DNA of 64,000 nucleotides from Desulfacinum sp. (GTDB lineage: Bacteria > Desulfobacterota > Syntrophobacteria > Syntrophobacterales > DSM-9756): positions 1 through 64,000 of the forward strand of contig JACIYN010000020.1 of assembly GCA_014359885.1 (NCBI GenBank). The letters are read 5' to 3'. The position numbers and the translations under genes were made by a program. The notes beneath the pieces are model-generated. The model did not search any database and had not been told where the DNA came from. It worked only from the letters and a program-made list of their open reading frames with translations. Positions 11,222-36,047 of the stretch are shown piece after piece. Each line of letters starts with the position of its first letter. The stretch's first letter is position 1.

Positions 11222-11665
11222 ATGATTCTCGGCAAGTTGCTCGAAGACAGAATCAAAGAAGCCTTGGCGATACTCAGGACCCGGAACCCCGACGTTGAAT
11301 GGGACCAGGAGCAGCTAATCCGCTTGGCACTGGGCTACGGACTCAACGTGCTTTTCAGGGAACATCGAAGAGTGCCGGTCGATTTCCGGGGAACGGTTTG
11401 CAGGCTCTATCCTGCCGGGCCGGTAGTACCGGTAACGGTAGTTGATCTGTCCATCTCGGGGGCCGGTCTGCTGCTTCAAAAGGAAGAAAATTTTAGGAAA
11501 AGCGAGATCCTTCTCCTGGATTTTGACGCCGGGCAAGGTTTACGCTTTGAGAAAACCGTCCTGGTCCGGTCGGTTCACGAAGAGAAAGTGGGATGTGTCT
11601 TCGTTGATCCCGATGAAAACAGGGACGTCGAGGCCTACCTGGCCGCAATAGGAGACGGTCGATGA
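11222..11665 (+). CDS. PilZ-domain protein (copy 2)
   Basis: A 147-residue paralogue of the upstream gene. It has the same layout and spacing: helical N-terminus (IKEALAILRTRNPDVEWDQE), R46-EHR-R50 and D75-LSISG-80, followed by a PilZ barrel ending in GCVFVDPDENRDVEAYL. The c-di-GMP contact residues are intact. GGGGAAAG precedes the ATG. Its stop codon overlaps the start of the next gene (ATGA), so the two are translationally coupled. The pair is most simply a tandem duplication that diverged. Effector role unknown. Confidence 0.8.
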   Translation: MILGKLLEDRIKEALAILRTRNPDVEWDQEQLIRLALGYGLNVLFREHRRVPVDFRGTVCRLYPAGPVVPVTVVDLSISGAGLLLQKEENFRKSEILLLDFDAGQGLRFEKTVLVRSVHEEKVGCVFVDPDENRDVEAYLAAIGDGR

Positions 11666-17810: not shown

Positions 17811-17833
17811 TCGCTTCTCCCCGGGCCACTGAT

Positions 17834-17853
17834 TATGCAACCTTTGTTGCATA
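17834..17853. promoter_or_regulatory. Palindromic operator for the RpiR-type regulator
   Basis: TATGCAAC-CTTT-GTTGCATA is a perfect 8+4+8 inverted repeat, 24 bases upstream of the regulator start. The half-site GTTGCAT recurs at 18015-18021 before soxB. Location and symmetry suggest autoregulation; this is inferred. Confidence 0.6.
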
Positions 17854-19303: not shown

Positions 19304-19357
19304 ACCGACGCGGCCGGCCCCAGGGTTGAGCCGCGCTCCAATCGCCGGGAGAATGTC

Positions 19358-19618
19358 ATGTCCTTTACCATCACCTGTCCGATCTGCGGAAAGCGCGATC
19401 TCTATGAATTCCGATTCGGCGGCGAAGAACGTGGCGTCCGCCCCGAGTACGAGGACCTCACGCCCCAAGCCTGGTGCGATTACGTGCACCTGCGCACCAA
19501 CCGCCCCGGCCCCCAGCAGGAATGGTGGTTTCACCGCGACGGCTGCGGCCGGTGGTTCACCGTGTGGCGGGACCCCATGACCAACCGGGAAACGGCATCC
19601 TCGGAGACGGCCAGATGA
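19358..19618 (+). CDS. soxD: Sarcosine oxidase delta subunit
   Basis: An 86-residue small subunit. Zinc ligands are visible as CPICGKRD near the N-terminus and HRDGCGRWF near residue 58. EEWWFHRDGCGRWFTVWRD-type sequence and RPGPQQEWWFHR are family signatures. It lies 54 bases after soxB, and its stop overlaps the soxA start (ATGA), so soxD and soxA are co-translated. Length and position are as expected for soxBDAG. Confidence 0.92.
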   Translation: MSFTITCPICGKRDLYEFRFGGEERGVRPEYEDLTPQAWCDYVHLRTNRPGPQQEWWFHRDGCGRWFTVWRDPMTNRETASSETAR

Positions 19619-22524
19619 AACGACTTGCCCACAGCCCCACGCAGCGCATCGACACCCGGCACCCTCTCCCGTTCTCCTACGGAGGCCGGCTCTTGGAAGG
19701 CTACCGCGGGGACACGGTGGCCACGGCCCTTTTTGCCAACGGGGTTCGGATCTTTTCCCGGAGCCTCAAATACCACCGCCCCCGCGGCCTGTACAGCCTG
19801 GATGGTGAATCCTCCAACTGCCTCATGGAAATCGACGGGCTGCCCAACATGCGCGCCGAACAGGTGCCCTTGCGGGGGGGGATGCAGGTGCGGCCCCAGA
19901 ACGTCCTGGGAAGTCCCGAGCGGGATCTTCTGGGTTTCCTGGACGCCTTCCATTGGGCGATGCCCGCCGGATTCTACTACCGCGTCTTCCACAAGCCCTA
20001 CCGGCTCTGGCCCTTCTTTCAGAACCTGATCCGAAGGGCCGCCGGCGCCGGCAAGGTAAATCCCGCGTGGGAACCGGGCCGTTATGACGAGCTCCATCTC
20101 CATGCGGATGTGTGCGTGGTGGGCGGCGGGCCCGCTGGCATGCAAGCCGCCAAGGCCGCTGCCCAAGCGGGGCTTCGCGTGGTCTTGCTGGAAGCGCGCC
20201 CCTGGCTGGGCGGATTCTACGACTGGCGCGCGGCGGAACACGATGGGACCCCGCTCTACGAGCGAGCCCGACATCTCGCCCGAGAACTGGAATCCCTGTC
20301 CAACGTCCGTGTTTACACTTCATGCACGGCCACGGGCCTCTACGGCGACCTCCTGGTGACGGCCGTTCAGGAGGGAGGCCCGGAGGATTTCTTCCATCAA
20401 AGATACCTGGAAATCCGGGCCCGAGCCGTGGTGGCGGCCACGGGATGCACGGAAAGGCCGCTGGTCTTCGAACACAACGAAAGACCCGGGGTCATGCAGC
20501 CTGCCTGCGCCCACCGGCTGGCCCGCACCTACGGCCTGCTCGCCGGCACCACGGCCGTTTTCAGTGTGGGGCACGATCTGGGCCTGGAAGCCGCCGCCGA
20601 TTTGCACGACCAGGGCCTGCAGGTGGCTTGCGTAGCGGACTGCCGCCCGGACGGACAAGACCCCCGACGGGTGGCCGCCTTGGAGGAGCGAAACATTCCG
20701 TTTCTCAGAGGATGGGTGGCCGCACGGGCCCTTGGGAAGAAGGCCGTGGAAGCCGTAGTGCTCTCCACCACCGAGGGAAGCGCCACGCGGACCATCTCCT
20801 GCGACGTGCTGGCGGCTTCCGCGGGACTCACCCCCCTCACCGGCCTCCTTTCCCTTGCCAGGTTGCCTTTTTCCTACGACGAGCGTACAGGTTTCTTCCT
20901 ACCCACGTCCCTGCCGGAAGGACTCTATGCCGCCGGGCGCCTCGTGGGCTACGACGACCCCGGATCCATCGAACTTTCCGGAACCGCGGCCGGCCTGCGG
21001 GCGGCGGTCCACTGCGGGGCCCTGGATGCTCCAAGGGCGGAGGAAGCCCACGCCGACCTCCAGGCCAAGCACCGCGTGCTTCGCGGGTCCAAGCTGGTCA
21101 TGGCTCCCGGGGCCGGAGCCAGAAGCTTTGTCTGCTTCGACGAGGATGCCACGGTCAAGCACGTGCGCCAGTCCGTTCGCATGGGTTTCGATGTTCCGGA
21201 GCTGGCCAAACGGGTGACCGCCATCGGAACGGGGCCCAGCCAGAGCGGCATTCCCGGTCACAATCTGCCGCTTATCATGGCGCACCTGCGGGGGGAATCC
21301 ACCGGAACCCTTCGCCCCACCACAGTGCGCCCTCCCTTGAAGCCCACGCTTCTGGCCACCTACGCCGGCCTTCATGGGGACGTCCACAAGAAGACGCCTC
21401 TTCACGACGTGCAGGAGCGGGCGGGAGCCGTCTTTCGCCGCGTGGGCGCCTGGAAACGGGCCAGGTACTTCAGCCCGGACGAGACCTGCCGGGACGAGGT
21501 TCTGAACGTTCGCAACAACGTGGGGATCCTGGACGGGTCCACTCTTGGAAAGTTTCGAATCTTCGGACCCGACGCCGAAAAGGCCCTGCAGCGGGTTTAT
21601 GTGGGCGACATGAGCCGGGTTCCCGCCGGAAGACTCAAGTATTCGGCCATGTGCACCGAAGACGGCTGCCTGCTGGACGACGGCGTGGTGACCAAGGTGG
21701 GCGAAAACGACTACTATTTCACCACATCCACCGGACGTGCAGGCGCCACCGTGGAATGGTTCCGTTTCCACACCCGACACGAAGATTGGGAATACTACCT
21801 GGTCAACCTCACCGATGCCCTGGCGTCCATTAATCTGGCGGGGCCCAAGGCCCGGGAGGTTCTTCAGCAGTTGACGGACGCGGATGTCTCCAACGAAGCC
21901 TTTCCCTTCCTGGGGTATCGGGAATTCGTGCTGAAAGGATTGGTTCCGGCCCGTGTGCTTCGCCTCGGTTTCGTCGGCGAGCTTTCCTACGAGATCCATG
22001 TTCCTTCTTCCGTGGCCCCCACGGTCTGGCAGTGGCTCCTGGAGGCGGGCCGTCCCCTGCGCATCCGGCCCTTCGGTCTGGAGGCGCAAAACGTGCTTCG
22101 CATGGAAAAGGGCCACGTGATCATCGGCCAGGAAAGCGAGATCCGAACCACCCTGATTGACTTGGGGCTGGGCTTCTTGTGGGACCGGAAGAAGACCTGG
22201 GCCAAGACGGTGGGGGTACCCGCCCTCCAGTTCGCGGAAAGCCAAAAGGGACGCCTGAAGCTCGTGGGATTCCTGGTGGACGGCTCCCGCCCACCCTTGG
22301 ACGGCTCCATCGTGGTGGACGGGTCCATCCGTGGTCACGTGTGCACTTGCCGCTACAGCCCCACCCTGGACAAGCCCATCGGCCTGGCGCTGGTGGACGA
22401 CGATCTGGCGGCCGTGGGATCCCGCCTGCGGATTTTCGAGCCGGGAGATCCCCCCGAACACTTCGACGCCCGGGTGGTGCCCACGCCCTTTTATGATCCC
22501 GAAGGCCAGCGAATGAAATGTTAG
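19615..22524 (+). CDS. soxA: Sarcosine oxidase alpha subunit
   Basis: A 969-residue large subunit. In order: a ferredoxin-like N-terminal domain (residues ~15-100, SRSLKYHRPRGLYSLDGE), an NAD-binding dinucleotide fold (~160, VCVVGGGPAGMQAAKAAAQA), a disulfide-reductase-like fold with GCTERPLVFEHNERPGVM, and a C-terminal glycine-cleavage T-type domain (~600-960, with MCTEDGCLLDDGVVTKVGEN and LGFVGELSYEIHVP) that binds tetrahydrofolate and captures formaldehyde as methylene-THF. The ATG at 19615 overlaps the soxD stop. Its length matches known SoxA. The T domain links N-methyl oxidation to C1 metabolism. Confidence 0.93.
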   Translation: MKRLAHSPTQRIDTRHPLPFSYGGRLLEGYRGDTVATALFANGVRIFSRSLKYHRPRGLYSLDGESSNCLMEIDGLPNMRAEQVPLRGGMQVRPQNVLGSPERDLLGFLDAFHWAMPAGFYYRVFHKPYRLWPFFQNLIRRAAGAGKVNPAWEPGRYDELHLHADVCVVGGGPAGMQAAKAAAQAGLRVVLLEARPWLGGFYDWRAAEHDGTPLYERARHLARELESLSNVRVYTSCTATGLYGDLLVTAVQEGGPEDFFHQRYLEIRARAVVAATGCTERPLVFEHNERPGVMQPACAHRLARTYGLLAGTTAVFSVGHDLGLEAAADLHDQGLQVACVADCRPDGQDPRRVAALEERNIPFLRGWVAARALGKKAVEAVVLSTTEGSATRTISCDVLAASAGLTPLTGLLSLARLPFSYDERTGFFLPTSLPEGLYAAGRLVGYDDPGSIELSGTAAGLRAAVHCGALDAPRAEEAHADLQAKHRVLRGSKLVMAPGAGARSFVCFDEDATVKHVRQSVRMGFDVPELAKRVTAIGTGPSQSGIPGHNLPLIMAHLRGESTGTLRPTTVRPPLKPTLLATYAGLHGDVHKKTPLHDVQERAGAVFRRVGAWKRARYFSPDETCRDEVLNVRNNVGILDGSTLGKFRIFGPDAEKALQRVYVGDMSRVPAGRLKYSAMCTEDGCLLDDGVVTKVGENDYYFTTSTGRAGATVEWFRFHTRHEDWEYYLVNLTDALASINLAGPKAREVLQQLTDADVSNEAFPFLGYREFVLKGLVPARVLRLGFVGELSYEIHVPSSVAPTVWQWLLEAGRPLRIRPFGLEAQNVLRMEKGHVIIGQESEIRTTLIDLGLGFLWDRKKTWAKTVGVPALQFAESQKGRLKLVGFLVDGSRPPLDGSIVVDGSIRGHVCTCRYSPTLDKPIGLALVDDDLAAVGSRLRIFEPGDPPEHFDARVVPTPFYDPEGQRMKC

Positions 22525-22535
22525 GAGCCCACATC

Positions 22536-23171
22536 ATGAACCACGCTTACCGCCATGCTCCGCTCACCCTGCCGGGAACGCCCCTGGATCAGGTCGTCCG
22601 GGACGGCTGGAACGTGACCCTTCGCTTCCGAGACGAAGGCGACGGGCCCTGGCTTGTGGATCTCAGCCATGTGCCCAAGTGGGACCTGCAGGGTCCCTCG
22701 CTGGATCGCACACCCGGTTTGGAGGGCATCGTACCGGCGCAACCCGGATCGAGCACCTTCCAGGAAGGCTGGATCATCAACCGGCTTAACCCCGTCCAGG
22801 CCAGCCTTTGGCGGCTCCGCCCCGATGCCCCTCCCCTGGCCCTCAAAGGCGTGGGAACGACGGATCTGACCGACGGCCTGGTCCTGCTGGCCCTTGCCGG
22901 CCCCGGGGCACTGGACGTCATGGAACGGGTCGCCTCCCTGGACTTCCGCCGCCCCGATATTTCCTGTCCAGTGGTCTTTCAGGGGCCGGTCTGCCGCGTG
23001 CCGAGCCAGGTGGTCCTGCTTCGAAGGGAGGACCTTTCGGCCGCGGTCTTGGTGGCCTTTTCACGGGGCTACGGCCCGTCCATGGCCGAGGCGTTGCTGC
23101 ATGCCGGTGAGCCCCTGGGACTCCGAGCCGCCGGCGAAGAACGGTTTTTCCAACACCTGGTTCAGCCATAG
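22536..23171 (+). CDS. soxG: Sarcosine oxidase gamma subunit-like protein
   Basis: A 211-residue protein related to the SoxG/T-protein fold. It has LVDLSHVPKWDLQGP near residue 35, LVLLALAGPGALDVMERVAS in the middle, and a C-terminal VLVAFSRGYGPSMAEALLHAG. GGAGCCC stands before the ATG at 22536; an in-frame ATG at 22518 overlaps soxA and lacks a site. Position directly after soxA completes the soxBDAG order. Gamma subunits diverge strongly, so assignment relies partly on context. Confidence 0.8.
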   Translation: MNHAYRHAPLTLPGTPLDQVVRDGWNVTLRFRDEGDGPWLVDLSHVPKWDLQGPSLDRTPGLEGIVPAQPGSSTFQEGWIINRLNPVQASLWRLRPDAPPLALKGVGTTDLTDGLVLLALAGPGALDVMERVASLDFRRPDISCPVVFQGPVCRVPSQVVLLRREDLSAAVLVAFSRGYGPSMAEALLHAGEPLGLRAAGEERFFQHLVQP

Positions 23172-23180
23172 GAGAAAACC

Positions 23181-24632
23181 ATGAAGAGCAAAGGCCGCCG
23201 AGGCGGTATCTACCGCCCCCTCACCCAGGATCAGGTCGAAACGATTCACGACGCCGCGCTGAACGTCCTGGAGCGTGTCGGTTTCACCTACGAATCCGGC
23301 CTGGACGATCTGTTGGAGATGCTGGAAGGCGCAGGGGCCCATGTGGACCGCGAAAAGGCCCGCGTCACCTTCCCCCGCGCCCTCGTGGAAGCTCAGACTG
23401 CCAAGGCTCCCAACCGGGTCATCCTATACGGCCGGAGCGACGACAGCCACCTGGATCTCCAGGACGACCTGGTTCATCTGGGTACGGGAGGCGCCGCCAT
23501 CAAGATCGTGGACCCCGAAAACGGAACGGCCCGACCTTCCACGCTCAAGGACGTTTACGATTTGGCCCGCCTGGTGGACAAGCTGGACAACATCCATTTT
23601 TACCTCCGGCCCTGCATCCCCACGGACATTCCCGAAGCCGCCTACGACGTGAACGTCTTCTATGCGTGCTTCAAGGGGACGCGCAAGCACGTGATGGCCG
23701 GAGTGAACAATGAAAAATCCTTCCACGACGTCCTGGAATTGGCGGCGCTTCTGGCCGGCGGTATGGACGCTCTCAAGGCCAGGCCGTTCTTCTCCGTCAT
23801 CACCTCTTTTGCCATCAGCCCCTTGAAGTTCTGCACCCAATCCACGCGAATCATGCGGGAAGCCAACCGCCACCGCATCCCCGTGGCCCTTTCCTGCGCC
23901 CCCATGGCCGGATCCACGTCCCCCATCACCATGGCGGGCACGCTGGCCCAGATCCATGCGGAGCAACTGGCCGGCATCACCGTCTGCCAACTGACCCAGC
24001 CCGGCGCCCCGGTTCTCTACGGCGGCATTCCGGGAATGGCCAATCTGAAAACCATGGGATATCTGGGCGGCGCCGTGGAATGCGGCATGATGAACGCCGC
24101 CATCCACCAGATGGCCGCTCACGTGGGCGTGCCCAACTACAATTCGGCGGGGCTTTCCGACGCCAAGGTTCCCGACGCCCAGGCCGGCTGGGAAAAGGCG
24201 CTCACCATCGTCCTGGCCGCCATGGGCGGTTCCAACTACGTGCATCATGCGGCGGGCATGCTGGAATCCATGCTGGCCGTGGCCTACGAACAGTTTGTGA
24301 TCGACGACGAGATCATCGGCATGAGCTGCAAGGTGCTCGAAGGGATTTCGGTGGACACGGATCGCCTGGCACTGCAAGTCATCGAATCGGTGGGCCCCGG
24401 CGGCAACTTCATGACAAGCCCCCATACCATGGCGCATCTGCACGACGAATACTTCGAAGGCAACGGCATCACCGATCGAAAGAGCCGTCCCAAGTGGGAA
24501 AAGGACGGTGCGGCGGACACGTGGGCCCGTGCCCGCCGCCTGGTGGAGCGGTTGCTGTCCGGGGAAGAAACCCCTTATATATCCGAGTCTCTCGATGAAC
24601 GAATTCGGGAGCGTTTTGAGATCCTTCTTTAG
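23181..24632 (+). CDS. mttB: MttB-superfamily corrinoid methyltransferase, non-pyrrolysine type
   Basis: A 483-residue TIM-barrel methyltransferase that moves a methyl group from a quaternary or tertiary amine to a cognate corrinoid protein. Family features include AALNVLERVGFTYES, VHLGTGGAAIKIVDPENG, GTRKHVMAGVNN, LSCAPMAGSTSPITMAGTL, YGGIPGMANLKT and GLSDAKVPDAQAGWEKAL. The frame is uninterrupted and has no in-frame amber codon, so it lacks the pyrrolysine of trimethylamine MttB. Characterised members without pyrrolysine (MtgB) use glycine betaine. Next to a betaine transporter and sarcosine oxidase, glycine betaine is the likely substrate. AGGAG precedes the ATG, and mttC follows 19 bases later. 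Confidence 0.9.
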   Translation: MKSKGRRGGIYRPLTQDQVETIHDAALNVLERVGFTYESGLDDLLEMLEGAGAHVDREKARVTFPRALVEAQTAKAPNRVILYGRSDDSHLDLQDDLVHLGTGGAAIKIVDPENGTARPSTLKDVYDLARLVDKLDNIHFYLRPCIPTDIPEAAYDVNVFYACFKGTRKHVMAGVNNEKSFHDVLELAALLAGGMDALKARPFFSVITSFAISPLKFCTQSTRIMREANRHRIPVALSCAPMAGSTSPITMAGTLAQIHAEQLAGITVCQLTQPGAPVLYGGIPGMANLKTMGYLGGAVECGMMNAAIHQMAAHVGVPNYNSAGLSDAKVPDAQAGWEKALTIVLAAMGGSNYVHHAAGMLESMLAVAYEQFVIDDEIIGMSCKVLEGISVDTDRLALQVIESVGPGGNFMTSPHTMAHLHDEYFEGNGITDRKSRPKWEKDGAADTWARARRLVERLLSGEETPYISESLDERIRERFEILL

Positions 24633-24651: not shown

Positions 24652-25284
24652 ATGAGCGATTGGGCACAACTGCAGCAGGCTTTGATTTCCGGCGATGGGG
24701 AAGAACTGTGCCGCCGGGTCCGTCAAGCCCTGGATCAGGGCGTTTCGGCCAAGGACATCCTCAACCAGGCCCTCATCCCCGCCATGGACGTGGTGGGCGA
24801 GCGCATGGAAAACGAAGACATGTTCATCCCGGAAGTTCTCATGGCGGCCAAGGCCATGAGCGCCGCCGTGGACATCCTGAAGCCGCTGCTGGCGGCCGAT
24901 GATCTGAGCGCCGCCGGCAAGGTGGTCATCGGCACGGTCAAGGGCGACCTCCACGACATCGGCAAGAACCTGGTGGCCATGATGATGGAAAGCGCCGGCT
25001 TTGAAGTGAAGGACCTGGGTGTGGACGTGGCGCCGGACGCCTTCGTGGCCGCCGCGCGCGACAACGGCGCCCAGCTCGTCTGCCTGTCCGCCCTTCTCAC
25101 CACCACCATGCCCATGATGAAGGAGACCGTGGAGGCCTTGGAATCCGCCGGGCTGCGCGATAAGGTAAAGGTCATGGTGGGGGGCGCTCCGGTGACCCGG
25201 GCTTTCGCCGCTTCCATCAACGCCGACGGATACGCTCCGGACGCCGGTTCCGCCGCCAAGCTGGCCAAGTCGCTGGTGCAGTAG
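24652..25284 (+). CDS. mttC: Corrinoid (B12-binding) methyl carrier protein
   Basis: A 210-residue methyl carrier for the MttB-type enzyme. The N-terminal cap (residues ~1-85) is a four-helix bundle with VGERMENEDMFIPEVLMAAK. The B12 domain (~88-210) has the lower-ligand motif D99-L-H101-D-I-G104 in KGDLHDIGKNLV, followed by CLSALLTTTMPMM (the SxL element) and VMVGGAPV (the GG element). GGGAGAGG precedes the ATG. It is co-directional with the methyltransferase. Neither a reductive activator (RamA-type) nor a methyl-corrinoid:THF methyltransferase is present in the window, so these must be elsewhere. Confidence 0.92.
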   Translation: MSDWAQLQQALISGDGEELCRRVRQALDQGVSAKDILNQALIPAMDVVGERMENEDMFIPEVLMAAKAMSAAVDILKPLLAADDLSAAGKVVIGTVKGDLHDIGKNLVAMMMESAGFEVKDLGVDVAPDAFVAAARDNGAQLVCLSALLTTTMPMMKETVEALESAGLRDKVKVMVGGAPVTRAFAASINADGYAPDAGSAAKLAKSLVQ

Positions 25285-25460: not shown

Positions 25461-26111
25461 ATGAGTGTGTGGGAATTTTTCGCCAACAACTGGCAGGAGA
25501 CGCTGCACCTTGCCACCCAACACTTCACCTTCGTCACCATTGCGGTCCTGATCGCCATCGTGACGGGCGTGCCCATCGGCATCTGGATCAGCTTCAACCG
25601 GAAGGCGGCGGACGTGGTGCTCTATCTGGCCGGGATCATCATGACCATCCCGTCCATCGCCCTTTTCGGCATCATGATCCCCATCCTGTCGGTCTTCGGC
25701 TACGGCATCGGCACGGTCCCGGCCGTGGTGGCCCTCGTCCTCTATTCCCAGCTGCCCATCATCCGCAACACCTACGCCGCCCTCAATGCGGTGGATCCCG
25801 CCATCATCGACGCGGGGACCGGCATGGGCATGACCCGCCGGCAGGTGCTCTTCAAAGTTCAGATTCCCATGGCGCTGAGCGTCATTTTCGCCGGCGTCCG
25901 CGTGGCCGTGGTCATGTCCATCGGGATCGGAGCCATCGCCGCCTTCATTGGAGCCGGCGGCCTGGGCCATTACATCTTCATGGGCATCAACCAGAGCTAC
26001 GACGCCATGGTGAACGCAGGCGCCATTACCGTGGCGGTTATGGCCGTCGTCACCGATTACCTTTTCGGATTGGCCGAAAAACGCATGGTCAGCAAAGGAT
26101 TAAGGAACTAG
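25461..26111 (+). CDS. opuCB: Glycine betaine/osmolyte ABC transporter permease (OpuCB-like)
   Basis: A 216-residue inner-membrane permease with five or six membrane segments and the BPD_transp_1 EAA loop (NAVDPAIIDAGTGMGMTRRQVLFKVQIP). SIALFGIMIPIL and IRVAVVMSIGIGAIAAFIGA-type segments are typical of OpuC/OsmW permeases. GAGG lies 8 bases before the ATG. It is the first of four transporter genes, and the next starts 2 bases after its stop. A hairpin-like sequence near 25313 lies between it and mttC, but no T-tract follows, so read-through from the methyltransferase genes is possible. Confidence 0.88.
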   Translation: MSVWEFFANNWQETLHLATQHFTFVTIAVLIAIVTGVPIGIWISFNRKAADVVLYLAGIIMTIPSIALFGIMIPILSVFGYGIGTVPAVVALVLYSQLPIIRNTYAALNAVDPAIIDAGTGMGMTRRQVLFKVQIPMALSVIFAGVRVAVVMSIGIGAIAAFIGAGGLGHYIFMGINQSYDAMVNAGAITVAVMAVVTDYLFGLAEKRMVSKGLRN

Positions 26112-26113
26112 CG

Positions 26114-27268
26114 ATGATTCGACTGGAACGCGTCACCAAGATTTATCCGGGGAGCGCCTTTCCCGCCGTGGACAGCGTGAGCCTGCAGGTGGCCGAAGGC
26201 GAAATCTGCATGCTCATCGGCTCCTCCGGCTGCGGAAAGACCACCATCATGCGCATGATCAACCGCCTGACGTCCATCTCGTCCGGAACCATCCACATCG
26301 GGGACCAGAACATCATGGACATGGACCCCATCCAGCTGCGGCGTCAGATCGGCTACGTGATTCAGCAGATCGGTCTTTTTCCGCACATGACGGTCTATGA
26401 CAACATCGCCACCGTCCCCAAGCTGCTGGGCTGGGACAGGAAGCGCATCGCCGAGCGGGTCGATGAACTCCTGGACCTGGTCAACCTGGATCCGGATACC
26501 TACCGATTCCGCTACCCTCGGGAACTCAGCGGCGGCCAGGCCCAACGGGTCGGCGTGGCGCGAGCCATGGCGGCGGACCCCCCCGTGATGCTCATGGACG
26601 AACCCTTTGGGGCCATCGACCCCATCAACCGGGAAGTCCTCCAGGAAGAATTTCTCAGGATTCAGGCACGACTCCGAAAGACCATCGTCTTCGTGACCCA
26701 CGATATCGACGAAGCCATCAAGATGGGCGACAAGATCGCCCTGCTGGACGCCGGCCGCCTCATCCAATTCGGTTCTCCGGAAGAGCTGCTCACCAGGCCC
26801 AAGAACCAGTTCGTAAAAGATTTCGTGGGCGCCGATCGCACCCTGAAGCGCCTCAATCTCCTGCGGGTAAAACACGCCATGCTGCGCAACCCCGTCCACT
26901 GTCTGGTGGATGACCCCAGCGAGCAGGTGGCCGAAAAGATGCTCGAGCAGGACATGAGCTACCTTCTGGTGACGGACCGGCAGGGGCGCCTCAAGGGCTA
27001 TGTGAATCTCTACGATCTGCGCGGCCACCAGGGTACCGTCGGTGACGTGGTGCGGCCCCTAAGCTTGACAGTGAAGCCCGAGACCAACCTGAAGGACGCG
27101 CTCAGCAAGATGCTCAGCTACGATCTGGGCATCGTGGTGGCCGTGGACGATGCGGGCCGCCTCCAAGGATTTCTCAATACCCGTACCCTCTTTTCCGTGG
27201 TGGGGGAGTCCTACGACGAACGAGGCGGCCATTGGGGCCGCATTACGGCGGATGGGAGGATCTTGTGA
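26114..27268 (+). CDS. opuCA: Glycine betaine ABC transporter ATP-binding protein with CBS domains (OpuCA-like)
   Basis: A 384-residue ATPase. The nucleotide-binding domain shows Walker A GSSGCGKTT, the Q-loop IQQIGLFPHMTVYDN, signature LSGGQAQRVGVARAMA, Walker B VMLMDEPFGAID and switch FVTHDIDEAI. Residues ~260-370 are two CBS repeats (HCLVDDPSEQVAEKMLEQDM and LGIVVAVDDAGRLQGFLNTR), which in OpuA/OpuC-type transporters sense ionic strength. The start at 26114 is 2 bases after the first permease, and the stop overlaps the second permease start by one base (TGATG). Confidence 0.92.
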   Translation: MIRLERVTKIYPGSAFPAVDSVSLQVAEGEICMLIGSSGCGKTTIMRMINRLTSISSGTIHIGDQNIMDMDPIQLRRQIGYVIQQIGLFPHMTVYDNIATVPKLLGWDRKRIAERVDELLDLVNLDPDTYRFRYPRELSGGQAQRVGVARAMAADPPVMLMDEPFGAIDPINREVLQEEFLRIQARLRKTIVFVTHDIDEAIKMGDKIALLDAGRLIQFGSPEELLTRPKNQFVKDFVGADRTLKRLNLLRVKHAMLRNPVHCLVDDPSEQVAEKMLEQDMSYLLVTDRQGRLKGYVNLYDLRGHQGTVGDVVRPLSLTVKPETNLKDALSKMLSYDLGIVVAVDDAGRLQGFLNTRTLFSVVGESYDERGGHWGRITADGRIL

Positions 27269-28020
27269 TGCGTCCGGCACAGTCGGATCGAAGCGGTCGT
27301 GTCTGGATCCTGTTGGCCGTGGTGTTGGCTTTCGCGTCCGGCGCCTTTGCCGAACGCCAGGGGTTTCTTTCCTTCGCCCTGGAACACCCCCGCGACATCT
27401 TTCGGCTTCTGGGCCAGCATCTCCAGCTGGTCCTCACCTCCAGCGCCATCGCCATCGCCGTGGGCGTCCCCGTGGGCACCCTGCTGACCCGGGGGTTCAT
27501 GCGCCGATACCGGGACTGGATCCTCAACCTCCTCGGCATCTGCCAGACGGTACCGTCCTTGGCCGTCATCGCCATTGCCATGGTTTACATGGGAATCGGC
27601 AAGCAAACGGCCATTTTCGCCCTGGTGATCTACAGCCTCCTGCCCATCATCCGAAACACCGTGGCGGGGCTGGCGAGCATCGACCCGGTCGTGCTGGACG
27701 CCGGCCGGGGCATGGGCATGACCCCATGGCAGGTCCTTTGGCGGGTGGAATATCCCAACGCTCTCTACATCATTTTGACCGGCATTCGAACCTCCACGGT
27801 CATCAACGTGGGCACCGCCGCCCTCAGTTTCCTGGTGGGCGGCGGAGGCTTGGGCGACCTGATTTTTACGGGCATCGCCATGGTGGACCCGGCCTACATG
27901 CTGGCGGGCGCCGTTCCCACGGCTGCCTTGGCCATCGCCCTCAACTGGGTCTTCGGCCAGCTGGAAAAGAGGATCATCAGCCCGGGTCTCGTCTACGAAC
28001 ACCACACCACGGCGGCCTGA
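27268..28020 (+). CDS. opuCD: Glycine betaine ABC transporter permease (OpuCD-like)
   Basis: A 250-residue second permease. The N-terminus has a signal-anchor-like segment (VWILLAVVLAFASGAFA). Further membrane segments and the EAA loop ASIDPVVLDAGRGMGMTPWQ follow, with the betaine-permease segment ICQTVPSLAVIAIAMVYMGI. GGGAGG stands before the ATG at 27268, which overlaps the opuCA stop. It is about 35 residues longer than the first permease at the N-terminus. It pairs with that permease to form the channel. Confidence 0.9.
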   Translation: MRPAQSDRSGRVWILLAVVLAFASGAFAERQGFLSFALEHPRDIFRLLGQHLQLVLTSSAIAIAVGVPVGTLLTRGFMRRYRDWILNLLGICQTVPSLAVIAIAMVYMGIGKQTAIFALVIYSLLPIIRNTVAGLASIDPVVLDAGRGMGMTPWQVLWRVEYPNALYIILTGIRTSTVINVGTAALSFLVGGGGLGDLIFTGIAMVDPAYMLAGAVPTAALAIALNWVFGQLEKRIISPGLVYEHHTTAA

Positions 28021-28121: not shown

Positions 28122-29045
28122 ATGAACAGGAAAAGACTGAAACTCACGGCCGTCGCCCTTTTCGCTTTCCTGGGCTTTGGGATCTTTTTCGCCGCTCACC
28201 AGGCCCATTCGGCCGACAAACGGATGGTGATAGGATCCAAGGAATTTACGGAGCAAAGAATTCTCGGGCAGATCATGATCGCCCTGCTCCAGAAGCACGG
28301 CTTCCAGTGCGAAGACAAGACGGGCTTGGGCGGCACCCTGGTCGCCCGAAAGGCCCTCCTGGCCGGTCAGATCGACACCTACATGGAATATACGGGCACC
28401 GGCCTCCTGGTGCACCTCAAGCACAAGGAAGCCATCACCGATCCGGTGAAGTGCTACGAAGCGGTCAAGAAGGAGGACCTGGAAAAGAACGGGCTGGTGT
28501 GGCTGCCCTACATGGCTTTCAACAACACCTACTGCCTCATGATGCGACGACAGGCCGCGGAAGCCAGCGGCATCAAGACCCTTTCGGACCTGGCCGCCTT
28601 CGTCAAAGCCAACCCGGACAAGGTCCGCTTCGGTCTTAACGCCGAATTCTATGCCAGGGCCGACGGTTACCGGGCCCTGCAGAAGGCCTATGGTTTCGAG
28701 TTTCCCTCGGACAAGATCATTAAGATGAGCTCCGGTCTTCTTTACAAGGCCCTGAAGGATGGACAGCTGGAGGTGGCCATGGGGTTCGCCACCGACGGTC
28801 GCATCAAGGGTTTCGATCTGGTGGTGCTCCAAGACGACAAACAGTTCTTCCCCGTCTACAACCCGGCTCCGGTGGTGCGCAAGGAAACCGCCGAAAAATA
28901 CCCGGAGCTGGAAACCATCTTCGCCGAACTGGCCGGGAAGCTGGACACCGATGCCATGACCCAGCTCAACTACGAGGTGGACATTGAGCACAAGTCGCCC
29001 AAGGACGTGGCCCAGGAATGGCTTAAAAGTGTGGGATTGATTTAG
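28122..29045 (+). CDS. opuCC: Glycine betaine/choline substrate-binding protein (OpuCC/OsmX-like)
   Basis: A 307-residue periplasmic binding protein with a signal peptide ending at about AHS-A (residues 1-30; FAFLGFGIFFAAHQAHSA). The mature domain starts MVIGSKEFTEQRILGQIMIA, the hallmark of the OpuAC/OsmF betaine-binding family, and includes GQIDTYMEYTGTGL and FNNTYCLMMRRQAAE. No lipobox cysteine is seen, so it is probably free in the periplasm. AAAGGAGGAC precedes the ATG. It completes the four-gene transporter. No terminator is visible before the palindromic repeat at 29087. Confidence 0.92.
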   Translation: MNRKRLKLTAVALFAFLGFGIFFAAHQAHSADKRMVIGSKEFTEQRILGQIMIALLQKHGFQCEDKTGLGGTLVARKALLAGQIDTYMEYTGTGLLVHLKHKEAITDPVKCYEAVKKEDLEKNGLVWLPYMAFNNTYCLMMRRQAAEASGIKTLSDLAAFVKANPDKVRFGLNAEFYARADGYRALQKAYGFEFPSDKIIKMSSGLLYKALKDGQLEVAMGFATDGRIKGFDLVVLQDDKQFFPVYNPAPVVRKETAEKYPELETIFAELAGKLDTDAMTQLNYEVDIEHKSPKDVAQEWLKSVGLI

Positions 29046-29246: not shown

Positions 29247-30563
29247 ATGATCCACACACACGCCGTTTTGGATTTCATGGAGTCGGCCGGTTGGGATGAA
29301 TTTCCGCCGGAGGTTCAACACCAGGCGAAAAGATGTCTTTTGGACACGCTGGGATGCCTTTTGGCGGGCATGCGCACTCCGGTGGCGCGGATTGTTGCGG
29401 ACACGGCCGTTTCCTGCTTCGGGGGGACCCCCGCCGCCCGGATTCTGGTGGACGGACGCTGTGCCTCTCCGGTCGGTGCGAGCCTGGCTCACGGATTCGC
29501 CGCCAACGCCCTGGACATGGACGACGGCTACCGGCTGGTCAAGGGCCATCCCGGAGCATGTATTTTGCCGGTTCTTCTCACCTTTGCGCAGACCATCCCC
29601 CTTTGTTCCGGTCGTGATTTCCTCACGGCCCTGGTGGTGGGCCACGAAGTGGGCATCCGGGCCGGGATCCTCCGTCATGCCGCATCTCCTTCCTACCACG
29701 CTTCCGGAAGCTGGGGGGCGTTGGCCGGGGTGGCCGCGGGGGCCAAGCTTCTGGGCATGAACCGTCGGATCATCCGGGAAGCACTGGGCACCGCGGAATA
29801 TCACGCCCCCATCGCCCCCATGATGAAATGCATCGATGTACCCGCCATGAGCAAGGACGGGATCGGGTGGGGAGCCATGGCGGCGGCGGCTTCGCTCATC
29901 CTGGCCGAAAGAGGCTTTACCGGCATACGGCCGCTTTTTGACGATAGGACGGATGACGTTCAGGTTCCCCCATTGGGGGGGCGATACGAAATATTGAATC
30001 TCTACTTCAAGCCCTACGCGGCCTGCCGCTGGGCGCAGCCGGCCATACGGGGAGCCCTTTTGCTGCAGCGCCGGCACGGCCTGTCCGTGGACGACATCGC
30101 CCGCATCCAGGTGAGGACCTTCCGCGCCGCCAAGGCTCTGGGCTGCGGGATGCCTGCCAATACGGAAGAAGCCCAGTACAACCTGGCCTATCCTTTGGCA
30201 ACCGCCTTGCTGGACGGGAAAGTGGGGCCGGATCAGGTGCTGGGCGAAGGACTTGGGGATCCCGAACGGATCCGCCTGGCGGGCAAGGTGCAGGTCATCG
30301 ACGATCCCGGGATGGACGCCGCTTTTCCCGCGAAAACACTGGCGGAAGTGTCGATCACGCTGACGGACGGAAGGGTTTTCCGATCCGGCGTCGTGGAGCC
30401 TGCTTGGGAACCGCCCCACACCCTTCCCGCCGACCGGGAACTGGAGGAAAAGTTCCTCTCCCTGTCATCTGCGGCGCTGGGAGACGGTAAGGCGCACGAC
30501 CTGTTGCGTCGTCTATGGGACCTGGACGCTTGCCACGACATCGCGTTCCTCTTCCAGATCTGA
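29247..30563 (+). CDS. MmgE/PrpD family protein
   Basis: A 438-residue member of the family that includes 2-methylcitrate dehydratase and iminodisuccinate epimerase. Family motifs are CLLDTLGCLLAGMRTPVARI, HGFAANALDMDDGYRLVKGH, VVGHEVGIRAG, YHASGSWGALAGVAAGAKLL and LYFKPYAACRWAQPAI. There is no signal peptide. The reaction cannot be fixed from sequence; dehydration or epimerisation of a hydroxy or imino acid is the family norm. It lies 40 bases before the giant glutaminase/SIS gene on the same strand, so they may share an operon. The methylcitrate cycle genes prpB and prpC are not nearby, which argues against a propionate role. Confidence 0.85.
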   Translation: MIHTHAVLDFMESAGWDEFPPEVQHQAKRCLLDTLGCLLAGMRTPVARIVADTAVSCFGGTPAARILVDGRCASPVGASLAHGFAANALDMDDGYRLVKGHPGACILPVLLTFAQTIPLCSGRDFLTALVVGHEVGIRAGILRHAASPSYHASGSWGALAGVAAGAKLLGMNRRIIREALGTAEYHAPIAPMMKCIDVPAMSKDGIGWGAMAAAASLILAERGFTGIRPLFDDRTDDVQVPPLGGRYEILNLYFKPYAACRWAQPAIRGALLLQRRHGLSVDDIARIQVRTFRAAKALGCGMPANTEEAQYNLAYPLATALLDGKVGPDQVLGEGLGDPERIRLAGKVQVIDDPGMDAAFPAKTLAEVSITLTDGRVFRSGVVEPAWEPPHTLPADRELEEKFLSLSSAALGDGKAHDLLRRLWDLDACHDIAFLFQI

Positions 30564-30602
30564 AAAACCCGAGTCGTCTTTCCACGGAGTGCGCTGAGAC
30601 TC

Positions 30603-33600
30603 ATGTGCGGCATTGTGGGATATGTGGGAGGCGCCGGAAACAGCCTCACGCGGGTGCTCACGGCCATGTCCGCCCTGGTCTACCGGGCCCCGGACAGCAC
30701 CGGCGTGGCGACCTTCGGAGATCCCTGGGAACCCGTTCGGGCCCTCAAGGCCGTGGGACCCGTGGACCGGCTGGCGGAAGCGCTTCTCCACCGATCGTTG
30801 TACGGAGGGCACAGCGAAGCCCTGGCCGCCATCTGGTTCGATGCGGGCCGTGAGGCGGACCTGAAGCCCCTTCAGCGCCGCGTGTTGGCTCTGGAAGGTT
30901 TCACCCCGGAAGACTTCGAACCCTACCTGAACGGCGAAAAGACCCCTCCGTTCTTTGATTCTTTGGTGGATTTAGATCCCTCCAAGCAGCAAGTTCTCCG
31001 GCCCGGGACCCCGGGTCGGCCGGCGCCGCTGCCGCACCATACCATCCGCTCCCGGAAAGGCCTGGCTCAACTGGTGGATACTTTCGCTCTCCACTACGAT
31101 CTTTCGCCGACCATCACACAGGCTCTCGTGCGCAAAGCCTTCCTGGACCGATTACGCCACCTGGACCCGCCCATGGGCCAAGGCTTTTCCGACGAGCAGA
31201 TCAAATCGGCCTTCGACATGGTCTTTGAAAGGATCCTTCAGCACCGAAGCCCCCTGAGACGTTCCCGACTGGACTACCCGGCGTCTTCCACTGCCGCTTC
31301 CCTCCACAAGCTCCTGTGGAAGACGTTGATCGGCACCCGGGTAGCGATTCCTCCCGACTTTGACCGCGACGGTGTTCGCTGCGTCTTCCGGCTCCTGGAT
31401 TCGGCCATCGTGGGTGAGCGCCTCTGGGAGGATGAACCCCGGCGGGACCGCGTCCAGGCACTCTTCCGAGATCTCATCCAGGCTCCGGCCCTGGGCGGGA
31501 GTTCCTGGCGTGTCGCCTACTGCGCCGAACGAGGTGCCAACGTCTATGGTTGGGCCGCCGCGGCTGTTCTGGAATTCCTTCGTGGGCGCCTTCTTGGCTC
31601 GGCGCCGACTTCCTTGATCCAGGACACCGCCACAGAGGCCTGGCAACCCGGGACCACCGGCCCGTCTGCACTGCGTTTCTTTTCCGCCCCCATCCTGGCC
31701 CATGGTCGCTACGCGCTCCAGTCCGCCGTCACGCAGAAAAATTCCCACCCCTTTTTCGATCGAGACAGGCAGCGGGCCATCGTTCTCAACGGCCAGTTCA
31801 GCCCCGCCGTGGAAAACGAGATCAAGGACTACCTGCGGCTCGCCGGATATGGCTTCCGATCGGAAAATTCCGCCGAGTACATGTCTCTTCTCTGGGGACA
31901 CTACTTCGCGTGCTTTCAAAAGGACAAGGATCGGTTCGAAGCCGTCACCGCCCACACCCAGGTCGGGGTGGATCACATCTCGCCCGCTTCCCAGACCATC
32001 GACTTCAAGGTCTGGCACGAACTCAGAGACAAGGGCCTCGAGGACTTGGACGAAAAGGCCTTTGTGGAGGCTACCCGGCAGCTCGCCCGGGATGGCGGGC
32101 AGATCGCCGTGGCCGGCATCAGCACCCGTTCGCCCGGCAGGATGTACGTGGCGTCCCACAATCGGCCCGTTTTCATCGTCCAGCGGCCGGAAAACGATGA
32201 TTTCATGGTGGTCTCCGACGTGAACGCGGCCCTCGGCCTTTTCCCTCAGAAACTGATCCGTGAAAAGAGCGAGCAATTGCGGGCCGCCCGGGAAGCTTTC
32301 GCTCGCGAGAGAAGAGATCTGCGTGGACGGGGCGCCTCCCCCGGAGAGCTCCGGGCGCTGGAACAGCGCCACAACGCGATTCGCGAGCAGATCCTTTCAC
32401 CTTTCCATGTGAAGGTGTACGCTCTGGAAGGGCCGGAGAATCTCGCCATCATCCACACATACCGCCTCGGGTCGGAGGTCCATCGCCGGGTGGCCTTCAA
32501 GAGCTTCGAGGGGGAGTTGCTCGAGGATCCGGAACCATTGGAGACGACCATTCATCCCTTGCAGGGGCGAAAGGATCTCCACCGGTCTTTCTTCGAATCC
32601 CATTTGAGCGAGATCCCGGACCGCCTGGAGACCATCTTCCGATTCTACGCCCCGGACGGTCGGCCCGAACTCACACACATACCCCTGCGGATCCGCCGCC
32701 AGGAAAAGAAGTTCGGCGGACGACTCCGAAACCTGGAGCGGCTTTTCCTGGTAGGCATGGGAACCAGCTATCACGTGGGCGGTATGGCCACGGAGATCTT
32801 CCAGGAGGTCGACCCGTCTGTCCACGTTCACGTGCTCAGCCCGATGGAGATCGAAGATCCGTCCGCGGTCTTCGAACCCGATCGGGATCTTGTGATCTTC
32901 ATGAGTTGGTCCGGAACCACGGCGGATGTGATCGAGTGCGCCAAGGCGTGCCTTGATCAGCGAGTGCCGATCCTGGCCCTCACGGAAAAGCCCTTTTCCG
33001 ATCTGGCTCTGCTGACAGCCAAGAGCATGGGGGTTTTGCCTGTCATGAGCGGCGAGGAGGTGACCGTTTCAGCCGTCAAGAGCCCCCTGTGCATGCTTCA
33101 CGGCCTCACCCTCTTCGCTCTTTGGCTGGCGTCGACACGGGAATCCGGCCTGGATCCCGACGAATATCTGCGGGTGGTGGAACAGTTGCCGGAGGCTGTG
33201 AGAAGCGTCCTGGAAGGCGAAGAAACCCTGGCGTTTGCAAAGGCCATGGCCCGATTCTACAGCGGCAGCCATGCGGCCTTTGTGGTGGATCGCCTGGCCA
33301 GTGGATCGCCGGCTGCCGAAATCGCCTTGAAGCTGGAAGAAACCACATGGCGCACCGTGGCACGGGCGGTGGATTCCCACCACCTGCCGCTCCGGGCCAT
33401 GGGCGGAAAACCTTCCGAACACCTGGTCTGGGTGCAGGCCACTCGTTCCTCGTGCCTCAAGGCAGCCCGCACCTGCATGAAAGAACTTTTCCTGGCGGAC
33501 ATCGCCTTCATGGCCACAGCGTGCCGCGGACCAGATGACCAGGAACTCAAAGCCCTGTGTGGAGATCGTGTTCATTTCCTACCGGAACTGCCGGAAACTT

Positions 33601-36047
33601 TCCAGGTGTACGTGGATCTGCCTTTCGCCTACCTTTTCGCCTACCATTTCGGCAGGGCTCAGGGGCGACGAGAAGACGACTTCCCGCGCAATCTGGCGAA
33701 ATCAGTGACCACGTCCCGGGCTCGCAAGGAAACGAGACGTTCCCGAAGCCGTCACTGGACCCGGATCAAAGAGGCGGCCCGCGCGGATGCGGATTTCAGT
33801 GAGGCGGCCCGGCGGCTCCGATCTCCTTCCCGGCTGGAAGAAACCTCCACGTTTGACTACGAGCGCAGCCGGCTGGAAGCCTTACGTTCAGCAGCCGCAG
33901 CCCTTCTTCGGAATCCTTGGGAGCAGGTTGTTGAAGAGGCAAACCTGTCGCTGGAGACGATGTGCTCCCTGCTGGAAGAAGACTCGGATATCTCCGGGCA
34001 AGTCCTTCTCGTGCCGTCGGATCCGCCCGGGCTTTCGGCCGCCACCGCCGCTGCGCAAATGTGGCGACGTCTTCTCGGCCGCGCTTTCAGGATCGTGTCG
34101 TCCCACGAACTGCACCTCACTCGGCTCCAAACGGACGATTTCTTGATCCCCGTCTCTGGCTCTCCCCCCTGCCCGACGCTGGTGCATCAACTGCAGGAAG
34201 CGGACACATCGAACATTGTGTGGATCGCGGCCGGCCCCTTCGAATCCCTCGCCGGGTGTCCTTATAAGATCCTTCCCACCCGCCGATTCCGACAGGACGG
34301 ATGGGTCGCCTGCTACCTCCTTTTGCTCCTCGTGCTCCACAAGGTGGTGGAAGCCGTGCGCCCCGAAAAAGCCCGCATCCTCATGGACGCGTTCCGCGCG
34401 GGAGCCGCCGGCCTAGAGAGGCTATTGAACCGCCCGGCCCTCCGCCAAGAGGTGTCCAACGTCATGGAAGCCAATCGGAGCTATGCGTCCGCCTATCTCA
34501 TCGGGTCGGGCGCAAGTCCGGTATCCGGGTGGCTGGCCGCCTTCGACCGCACACGTTCCCTCACCCTTGCTTTTCACCCGTACGGGGAAAGCGCCCATGG
34601 GTCCTTGGTCACCGTGGATCCGCGCAGCGAGCTGAAGTACATCCGCATGGAATCCCGAGACCGCATGGTGGCGCGCTACGGGGAATCCGCCGTTTCCTCC
34701 TGGGAAGCGATGTTCCTGGGAGGGAGAACCGTGGATGATTTTCTGGCCCAGCCCGATCCCTCAGGCCTCACGGTCCCGGTTCGCCCCTTCTACGACGAAC
34801 ATTGGTACCTCCCCGTGCTGCGCCCGGACTACGACCCGGCCGAGGACAATCTGATCTTTCTCGATGCCACGGACGCTCACACCCTGCCCGCCGCCTTGGA
34901 TGAACTGAACTCCTACGGATGTCGGGCGGCGCGCATCGTTCTCCTCACCCAGGGTGCTTTTCTCCGTGGATCCGTCGGCAAGGCGCTTTTGGCCCAACCC
35001 ATCAGCCACCTTCTCACCCTTCCTTCCCCGGACACCGAATCCCCCGCACGTCCGGTTCCGGACCCGGTCGTGCCCTTGTGCACCCATGCCTTGGCGGCGG
35101 TGCTCGCCGCCGAGCGATGCCGCCTGGAGCAGAGTTCGCTCGACGGCGAACCCTGGTCTGAGCATTTACTCCGCGCCTTCGGACCTCTGCGCCTCATTGT
35201 GCAGGACAAGCAGGCGGACCTGCCGTGTTTGACCCATCACCTCATCACCTCCCTCAGGAATCTGGCGCCCGTGATCGACCGGGTCCACACCATGACCACC
35301 CGGCGGGTCCGGAAGGTATTGGAGGAAAGGGATTTAAAGGATCTCGCCGCGGCGGGAGCCCTGGCTTCCCCCGCAGAAGCGCTGGCCCATTTCCGGATGC
35401 AAGCAAAGCGGGATGCCCCCTTTTTCCTCATCGCCGAGTCCCGGGACGAGCCTTGGGAAGGTTCACCCCCCCCCCCGGCGGCGAAAGGCCATTGGGACAC
35501 CCCCCTGTGGGTGGAGGCCCATGGCGATCCGTGGCGGGTTCTGGCCCATGGTGTGGTGGGCATGGGACCCGGGACGAACGGGCAAGGCCTTCTCCTGATC
35601 CCCCTGCTGAACGACGGCCCCGGTCGCCTCGTCTTCCTGGCCGTCTCTTACAAGGACTGGAGCGCAGAAGGCGACCTTTCTTCGGCCATTGATCAGACCT
35701 GCAAAGCCCTCGGCAAGGATGCCGTAACCACGGATTTTCAAAGTCCCCGTTACATGAAGATCGTCAGTCGCTTCAACAGTCTCATGTTTCCAGAAGGGGT
35801 TTCCTGGAATGACCGCTTTTTGCTTTCGGTCCCGAGGGCGCGGCTCTTTGTCGACAGGAGCCGGGTGGTGGCGGATTTCATTGCAGAGCAGATTCGCTCA
35901 GCTCTGATGCTCGTGCCGCACAGCGCCGACCGCCCTCGTCTTTTTCTGCGTCAGATGGAGGTCTTTTTTCGAGAAACGTGTGGCGCTGCTGAAGCCCGGC
36001 CCGGGCCGCTCCCTTGGTGGGAATCCTTCCTCCGGTTCCTGAAATGA
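30603..36047 (+). CDS. Giant GlmS-like glutamine amidotransferase/SIS protein, 1,814 residues
   Basis: The protein begins MCGIVGYVG, so Cys2 would be the N-terminal nucleophile of a class II glutaminase; this fixes the start although the ribosome site is weak. The glutaminase domain is split. After residue ~75 an insertion of about 285 residues follows, and the domain resumes at ~365 with ILAHGRYALQSAVTQKNSHP and VLNGQFSP. A helical linker spans 550-595. SIS domain 1 (~710-860) has LFLVGMGTSYHVGGMATEI and FMSWSGTTADV, and SIS 2 (~885-1020) has AFVVDRLASGSPAAEIALKL. After an Arg-rich linker (~1035-1085), a second degenerate SIS-like pair follows (~1130-1360, AYLIGSGASPVSGWLAAF), then an unassigned C-terminus. 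GlmS is normally about 610 residues. Product unknown; it may transfer Gln amide nitrogen to a sugar phosphate. Confidence 0.85.
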   Translation: MCGIVGYVGGAGNSLTRVLTAMSALVYRAPDSTGVATFGDPWEPVRALKAVGPVDRLAEALLHRSLYGGHSEALAAIWFDAGREADLKPLQRRVLALEGFTPEDFEPYLNGEKTPPFFDSLVDLDPSKQQVLRPGTPGRPAPLPHHTIRSRKGLAQLVDTFALHYDLSPTITQALVRKAFLDRLRHLDPPMGQGFSDEQIKSAFDMVFERILQHRSPLRRSRLDYPASSTAASLHKLLWKTLIGTRVAIPPDFDRDGVRCVFRLLDSAIVGERLWEDEPRRDRVQALFRDLIQAPALGGSSWRVAYCAERGANVYGWAAAAVLEFLRGRLLGSAPTSLIQDTATEAWQPGTTGPSALRFFSAPILAHGRYALQSAVTQKNSHPFFDRDRQRAIVLNGQFSPAVENEIKDYLRLAGYGFRSENSAEYMSLLWGHYFACFQKDKDRFEAVTAHTQVGVDHISPASQTIDFKVWHELRDKGLEDLDEKAFVEATRQLARDGGQIAVAGISTRSPGRMYVASHNRPVFIVQRPENDDFMVVSDVNAALGLFPQKLIREKSEQLRAAREAFARERRDLRGRGASPGELRALEQRHNAIREQILSPFHVKVYALEGPENLAIIHTYRLGSEVHRRVAFKSFEGELLEDPEPLETTIHPLQGRKDLHRSFFESHLSEIPDRLETIFRFYAPDGRPELTHIPLRIRRQEKKFGGRLRNLERLFLVGMGTSYHVGGMATEIFQEVDPSVHVHVLSPMEIEDPSAVFEPDRDLVIFMSWSGTTADVIECAKACLDQRVPILALTEKPFSDLALLTAKSMGVLPVMSGEEVTVSAVKSPLCMLHGLTLFALWLASTRESGLDPDEYLRVVEQLPEAVRSVLEGEETLAFAKAMARFYSGSHAAFVVDRLASGSPAAEIALKLEETTWRTVARAVDSHHLPLRAMGGKPSEHLVWVQATRSSCLKAARTCMKELFLADIAFMATACRGPDDQELKALCGDRVHFLPELPETFQVYVDLPFAYLFAYHFGRAQGRREDDFPRNLAKSVTTSRARKETRRSRSRHWTRIKEAARADADFSEAARRLRSPSRLEETSTFDYERSRLEALRSAAAALLRNPWEQVVEEANLSLETMCSLLEEDSDISGQVLLVPSDPPGLSAATAAAQMWRRLLGRAFRIVSSHELHLTRLQTDDFLIPVSGSPPCPTLVHQLQEADTSNIVWIAAGPFESLAGCPYKILPTRRFRQDGWVACYLLLLLVLHKVVEAVRPEKARILMDAFRAGAAGLERLLNRPALRQEVSNVMEANRSYASAYLIGSGASPVSGWLAAFDRTRSLTLAFHPYGESAHGSLVTVDPRSELKYIRMESRDRMVARYGESAVSSWEAMFLGGRTVDDFLAQPDPSGLTVPVRPFYDEHWYLPVLRPDYDPAEDNLIFLDATDAHTLPAALDELNSYGCRAARIVLLTQGAFLRGSVGKALLAQPISHLLTLPSPDTESPARPVPDPVVPLCTHALAAVLAAERCRLEQSSLDGEPWSEHLLRAFGPLRLIVQDKQADLPCLTHHLITSLRNLAPVIDRVHTMTTRRVRKVLEERDLKDLAAAGALASPAEALAHFRMQAKRDAPFFLIAESRDEPWEGSPPPPAAKGHWDTPLWVEAHGDPWRVLAHGVVGMGPGTNGQGLLLIPLLNDGPGRLVFLAVSYKDWSAEGDLSSAIDQTCKALGKDAVTTDFQSPRYMKIVSRFNSLMFPEGVSWNDRFLLSVPRARLFVDRSRVVADFIAEQIRSALMLVPHSADRPRLFLRQMEVFFRETCGAAEARPGPLPWWESFLRFLK

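Follow-up and report, generated by a model that had tools for sequence, protein, structure and literature searches.

A giant GlmS-related protein of glycine betaine-type operons: a candidate fused pseudo-dimer with one composite active site

The stretch of Desulfacinum DNA analyzed here (64,000 nucleotides; “the window”) encodes at 30603-36047 on its forward strand, from an ATG start and with no internal stops, a protein of 1,814 amino acids that we refer to simply as “the giant.” What could such a protein be doing? Its features are most economically read as those of a GlmS-derived amidotransferase, or of a related amide-using SIS enzyme, for anaerobic betaine metabolism. In its fuller form, which we rate an even bet, the giant would be a GlmS/GFAT-derived amidotransferase dedicated to anaerobic quaternary-amine (glycine betaine-type) operons and built as a fused, asymmetric pseudo-dimer. 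If true, the anaerobic breakdown of glycine betaine, an important supplier of methyl groups in sediments, would gain a missing and very large enzyme in organisms whose other steps of the pathway are recognizable. It would also be a natural case of a homodimer with shared sites made into one chain with one composite site, and the keeping or losing together of the catalytic residues of its two halves would offer a testable model of how pseudo-dimers evolve. The parts are known folds, and the evidence below supports a distinct protein family that is not GlmS; what appears to be undescribed is their fusion into a pseudo-dimer, the change in the glutaminase and the association with betaine operons. 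A search of open-licence papers, which is weak evidence of novelty, turned up no description of such a giant.

Unusual length alone might suggest that assembly or annotation had fused unrelated genes, the very error that the original prediction had named as one that would refute it. We put the probability of such an artefact close to nil, because independent full-length reading frames occur in isolates and in metagenome-assembled genomes (MAGs) over a wide range of identities, which excludes a false join, and because dN/dS is low over the whole gene (0.21 against D. infernum and 0.25 against D. hydrothermale). In these same two comparisons, each segment longer than 70 residues gives 0.13-0.39, with the helical insert at 0.21-0.26 and both SIS pairs at 0.15-0.26; the N-terminal 66 residues are tighter still (0.00-0.09), and the sole looser segment is a 33-residue Arg-rich linker (0.39-0.50). 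The gene is intact and under purifying selection.

Where else are giants found? The Desulfacinum genome that matches D. infernum DSM 9756 has one 96% identical to the window's, and D. hydrothermale DSM 13146 has one at 67%; at 33-38% identity come relatives from Desulfobacterales, Desulfarculaceae (a sequence that ends at a contig edge) and Spirochaetes MAGs. Our alignment holds 49 homologues, mostly from Desulfobacteria, with full-length giants in Desulfobacteria, Desulfacinum and one spirochaete. We had at first counted the giant as rare, with seven cases from a two-pattern scan of contigs, an idea given up when a class-wide profile search gave far more: the profile of the second SIS pair matched 56 of the 389 genomes in the class around G343 (the genome of locus L045), and some 50 of those matches are long reading frames, mostly of 1,470-1,880 residues, a few weak ones being short GlmS-like stretches. 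Elsewhere giants are few (4/297 in a sample of the window's phylum, 1/296 in the phylum of the spirochaete and 1/85 in the class of G279). The viral contigs searched held no relatives, and in the plasmid collection all of the matches listed were GlmS or the SIS part alone. Archaeal matches (L048-L050) were considered as compact ancestors of the giant and set aside, L048 and L050 carrying ordinary GlmS.

Table 1. Features of the giant gene and its neighborhood in the window
Feature	Coordinates	Strand	Basis and remarks
Divergent RpiR/SIS transcriptional regulator	16932..17852	-	Divergent from the run of + strand genes
Sarcosine oxidase-like genes	18086..23171	+	SoxB 18086-19303, SoxA 19474-22524, SoxG-like 22518-23171; SoxG-like named by position, no Pfam match
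MttB-superfamily methyltransferase	23181..24632	+	Nearest solved: glycine betaine methyltransferase
Corrinoid protein	24652..25284	+	Best model glycine betaine-specific MtgC, 217 bits vs model cut-off 370
OpuC-type ABC transporter	25461..28020	+	Permease 25461-26111, ATPase ~26108-27268, permease ~27232-28020
OpuAC glycine betaine/choline-type substrate-binding protein	28122..29045	+	Binding protein of the OpuC-type transporter
MmgE/PrpD family protein	29247..30563	+	Nearest solved: cis-aconitate decarboxylase, IDS-epimerase
Giant, putatively fused GlmS-like gene, whole	30603..36047	+	Open reading frame, homologues, dN/dS
Glutaminase (class II, Ntn), N-terminal half, residues 1-66	30603..30800	+	GlmS alignment; Cys2 at 30606-30608, Arg28
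Helical insert, residues 67-357	30801..31673	+	Relatives: none detected
Glutaminase, second half, residues 358-560	31674..32282	+	Kept: Arg369, His382, Asn396, Gly397
Helical-then-beta linker, residues 561-640	32283..32522	+	AlphaFold secondary structure, block pLDDT 65-91
SIS pair 1 (GlmS isomerase-like), residues 641-1045	32523..33737	+	Pfam, NCBIfam, alignments
Arg-rich linker, poorly conserved, residues 1046-1078	33738..33836	+	Alignment, dN/dS
SIS pair 2 (degenerate GlmS isomerase-like), residues 1079-1520	33837..35162	+	Fold, alignment; His1332 at 34596-34598
Optional C-terminal domain, residues 1521-1814	35163..36044	+	Related to the tail of the ~1,250-residue GlmS of Desulfobacteria

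The giant begins, as had been claimed, with a Met-Cys-Gly-Ile glutaminase start (MCGIVGYV), and the insertion of about 285 residues noticed before the glutamine-binding part is there too, at residues ~67-357 and about 290 residues long, the two halves of the glutaminase having been placed by alignment with ten ordinary GlmS proteins; smaller insertions lie at ~449-484. The insert is predicted to be helical by a low-confidence AlphaFold model (residues 1-700, seven alignment rows, pLDDT 52) that was too poor for a fold search, and hhalign found no relation between the insert and either GlmS or the 1,250-residue GlmS discussed below (E 0.4-0.5). Two of the remaining descriptions needed amending: the Arg-rich linker is present in the window's protein (SRARKETRRSRSRHWTR) but is not conserved in the family, and the unassigned C-terminus, given as about 250 residues, is about 290 residues long and missing in most members, which stop at ~1,485-1,535 residues, only nine (the window's included) adding the extra ~285.

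Is the N-terminal domain still a glutaminase? Its hydrolytic core suggests so. Cys2, directly after the initiator Met, is found in 47 of the 47 homologues that cover the position, Arg28 (the Arg26 equivalent) in 48/48, Asn98 in 48/49 and Gly99 in 49/49, as in a class II (Ntn) glutamine amidotransferase; more broadly, Cys1, Arg26, Arg73, His86, Asn98 and Gly99 (E. coli numbering) are kept in practically all 49, and Trp74 is Trp or Tyr in the first 27. The recognition positions are changed. Asp123 of the E. coli enzyme, which we take to hold the alpha-amino group of glutamine, and where a class II glutaminase would have its Asp, is Ser in all 49 homologues (Ser423 in the window's giant). His77 is Gln in 48/48 (Gln373 in the window), and Thr76 is Leu, Ile, Met or Val, so that none of the three glutamine-site residues of GlmS is in place; in GFAT, the counterparts of Thr76 and His77 form part of the lining of the pocket for glutamate (PMC7000685). 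With the hydrolytic core kept and the recognition positions replaced, we infer an altered specificity: the giant would still hydrolyze an amide that it recognizes otherwise than GlmS does, and glutamine may not be its donor. One could go further and imagine that the re-specified site, with its invariant Ser for Asp123, its Gln for His77 and its retained carboxylate-binding Arg73, recognizes glycine betaine itself or the amide of an N-methylated or quaternary amino acid, in which case the giant would be a new enzyme or a betaine-gated amidotransferase in the quaternary-amine metabolism of anaerobes; we consider this speculation unlikely.

The SIS half was described in the original prediction as one clear SIS pair followed by a second, degenerate one, and both are borne out. 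The first (residues ~641-1045; Pfam SIS, E 1.6e-8) matches the GlmS isomerase by hhalign at E 5e-30 and carries the best stretch (656-1036) of an NCBIfam glmS match of E 6.8e-45, together with an intact PRNLAKSVT tail (PRNxAKSVT of GlmS). It keeps the phosphate loop as Ser768/Ser770/Thr773 (GlmS Ser347/Ser349/Thr352) and the isomerase residues as Lys910 (Lys485), Glu913 (Glu488) and Lys1033 (Lys603), with Thr1036 also kept and Lys1033 present in 48 of the 48 homologues that cover it. What it has lost is the His504 motif (KHGP).

A histidine at the missing position turns up in the second SIS pair. Residues 1079-1520 have no Pfam match and no match to PDB sequences, and it is structure comparison that identifies them: an AlphaFold model (pLDDT 68) has the overall tandem-SIS fold of the GlmS isomerase, superposing on the GFAT/GlmS isomerase with Z 28.7 over 330 aligned residues at rmsd 3.2 (VIA-align), with a Foldseek E of 5.9e-9 against the GFAT/GlmS isomerase domains. 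By hhalign the second pair aligns with an E of 7.7e-5, the best of 25 shuffled-column controls reaching 0.039. In that alignment the segment YGESAHGSLVTVD (GPLVTVD in most relatives) falls on GlmS AAGEMKHGPIALID, and hhalign and three MAFFT modes alike put His1332 on His504. The SIS half is thus duplicated and degenerate, as had been proposed, but not merely decayed, since the catalytic His absent from the first copy is present in the second.

In GFAT, the equivalent of His504 is supplied by the partner subunit. With His1332 in the second SIS pair, one fused chain would then hold all four residues, arranged as in the homodimer, and from its sequence the giant looks like a fused, asymmetric pseudo-dimer with one composite site. 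We infer both the spatial assembly of the composite site and the catalytic activity of the giant. In the mechanism that we favor, the Cys2 domain would release ammonia from an amide recognized otherwise than glutamine is in GlmS, and the ammonia would pass to the one composite SIS site, to which the first pair would bring the phosphate loop and Lys910/Glu913/Lys1033 and the second would bring His1332, whose GFAT counterpart comes from the other subunit. Amination of a keto- or aldo-phosphate would follow at that site. Our best guess at the reaction is that the giant aminates a keto-phosphate, in dependence on an amide, in the course of quaternary-amine catabolism; the substrates and the product are guessed.

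The family itself bears on the composite site. Thirty giants have the Lys/Glu/His pattern at 485/488/504 (two of them with one change), 18 have Asn, then Leu, Ile or Val, then Tyr or Gly at those positions, and mixtures number 0 of 48. The 18 appear to form a single group of relatives, so that the joint loss of Lys485, Glu488 and His504 was probably a single evolutionary event, and it supports the composite site without being conclusive. This Asn/Leu/Tyr subfamily should have lost the isomerization step. It also counts against our preferred explanation, since it lacks Glu488 and His504 and sits in the same type of operon, so that not every such operon can require complete GlmS chemistry. Might the giant be instead a sensor or regulator, its glutaminase and SIS parts binding small molecules (betaine or an amino acid; a sugar phosphate) and exerting control over the operon or over the methyltransferase while catalyzing little or nothing? 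The subfamily without Glu488 and His504 would fit, as would the changed glutamine-recognition residues of all members and the SIS-type RpiR regulator gene close by in about 11 of 50 loci. We nonetheless think it unlikely: pure binding would not require Cys2, Arg28, Asn396, Gly397 and Lys1033, which are practically invariant, and no DNA-binding or signaling domain rises above noise in the giant. (PADLOC likewise matched no defence model to it.)

Returning to the dedicated amidotransferase, we must ask how it differs from GlmS. The two share (TIGR01135 being the reference) an N-terminal Cys glutaminase and a SIS pair, with Arg26, Arg73, His86, Asn98, Gly99, Ser347/Ser349/Thr352, Lys485, Glu488, Lys603 and the PRNxAKSVT tail in common, yet the giant is three times longer, its glutaminase is split by the insert, its Asp123, Thr76 and His77 are replaced and its His504 lies only in the second fused SIS pair. 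That it is simply one more glucosamine-6-phosphate synthase, ordinary but for its added domains, could be argued from the larger subfamily, which keeps Lys485/Glu488/Lys603 and possibly takes His504 from the second module. We find this quite improbable, given a score of 153.6 bits against the curated GlmS equivalog cut-off of 418, glutamine-site changes without exception, the association with betaine genes and, in the window's own genome, a standard 610-residue GlmS. That last gene also disposes of a replacement of GlmS by the giant there, and it is why the earlier description of a distinct enzyme holds as regards a distinct family, separate from GlmS.

The tandem-SIS fold is shared as well with NagB-II, FrlB and FraB, enzymes that, unlike the giant, have no glutaminase and no fusion of two SIS pairs. 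The second SIS pair matches their folds too, the operon setting is catabolic and amide recognition is altered, all of which would suit a deglycase or deaminase running in the FrlB/FraB/NagB-II direction; the SIS site would cleave the amine-sugar phosphate conjugates of betaine-like compounds, their amides being hydrolyzed by the Cys2 domain. We judge this rather unlikely, because the first SIS pair is nearest to GlmS in sequence, down to the full PRNxAKSVT tail, and because comparison with named genes and inspection by eye brought no sugar kinase or sugar transporter to light in the shared neighborhood.

What, then, is that neighborhood? The giant closes a run of forward-strand genes from SoxB to MmgE/PrpD, the last of which ends 39 bp upstream (a spacing of 40 bases had been reported, and the two genes are found paired in further genomes as well). 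We compared 50 giant loci with the window's genes plus RACo, methyl-THF methyltransferase, Fe-ADH, AFOR and BCCT, and by hand count at least one quaternary-amine-type neighbor occurs in 40 of them (MttB in 30, OpuAC in 17, PrpD in 14, RpiR in about 11 and Sox in 8); several of the other ten end at contig edges. Of 25 genomes, 15 have an MttB gene no more than 15 kb from the giant, against the 1.0 expected from how many MttB genes each genome carries (Poisson-binomial P about 6e-16), a statistic that ignores kinship among partly related genomes and counts among the 25 the operon that supplied the query genes. The OpuC transporter was recognized by sequence, and its ATPase has tblastn relatives in other giant loci. 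OpuC and Sox genes go mainly with Lys/Glu/His giants, and the Asn/Leu/Tyr subfamily is mostly found directly beside an MttB of the window's type. The genomic-context survey that had been called for thus favors the breakdown of glycine betaine and quaternary amines over amino-sugar or cell-wall pathways, an unusual amino sugar having been the tentative product in the original prediction. With the known MttB/MtgB glycine betaine demethylation clusters, the giant loci share an MtgB-like methyltransferase, an MtgC-like corrinoid protein, OpuC, a RACo-type activase and a methyl-THF methyltransferase; a GlmS-like protein in such clusters was not found in the open-licence papers searched.

Several smaller observations belong with these loci. 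PrpD also stands beside the giant at L091, L093, L094, L103, L105, L106, L113, L115, L117 and L122. In D. infernum, the gene upstream of the giant (L041:98-1119) encodes an oligopeptide-type ABC ATPase and not PrpD as in the window (29247-30603), a difference that, between giants 96% identical, implies recent rearrangement of the locus. A protein of about 225 residues follows the giant at L045:13407-14078, L046:14579-15262 and L088:5762-6454 (minus strand), with no Pfam match in the two tested; beside RACo or a methyl-THF:corrinoid methyltransferase, it looks like an accessory of the corrinoid system.

Four Desulfobacteria genomes with giants carry an oversized GlmS of ~1,200-1,270 residues with an extra C-terminal domain (L055:1245-5060, minus strand; L056:1724-5512; L057:153-3875; L058:1608-5216). 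No GlmS above the curated cut-off was found in these genomes, the oversized gene being the sole full glmS-like gene found, and it is apparently an undescribed form of this essential enzyme. Like the giant, this ~1,250-residue protein is a GlmS relative with insertions, and its last ~185 residues resemble the giant's optional tail (hhalign E 1.6e-5, against 0.14 for the best of 25 column-shuffled controls and 0.27 reversed). Unlike the giant, it keeps the Asp123 equivalent and the canonical HTRW motif, has its insert elsewhere in the glutaminase and shows no detectable second SIS pair; descent of the giant's second pair from this form was considered and is unsupported (E 0.32). Elsewhere in the window, two adjacent small reading frames with like starts (10557-11030 and 11222-11665; LGKKLDKALEILKARNPD.. 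and LEDRIKEALAILRTRNPD..) lie upstream of an integrase-like one (12715-13905), possibly a mobile element.
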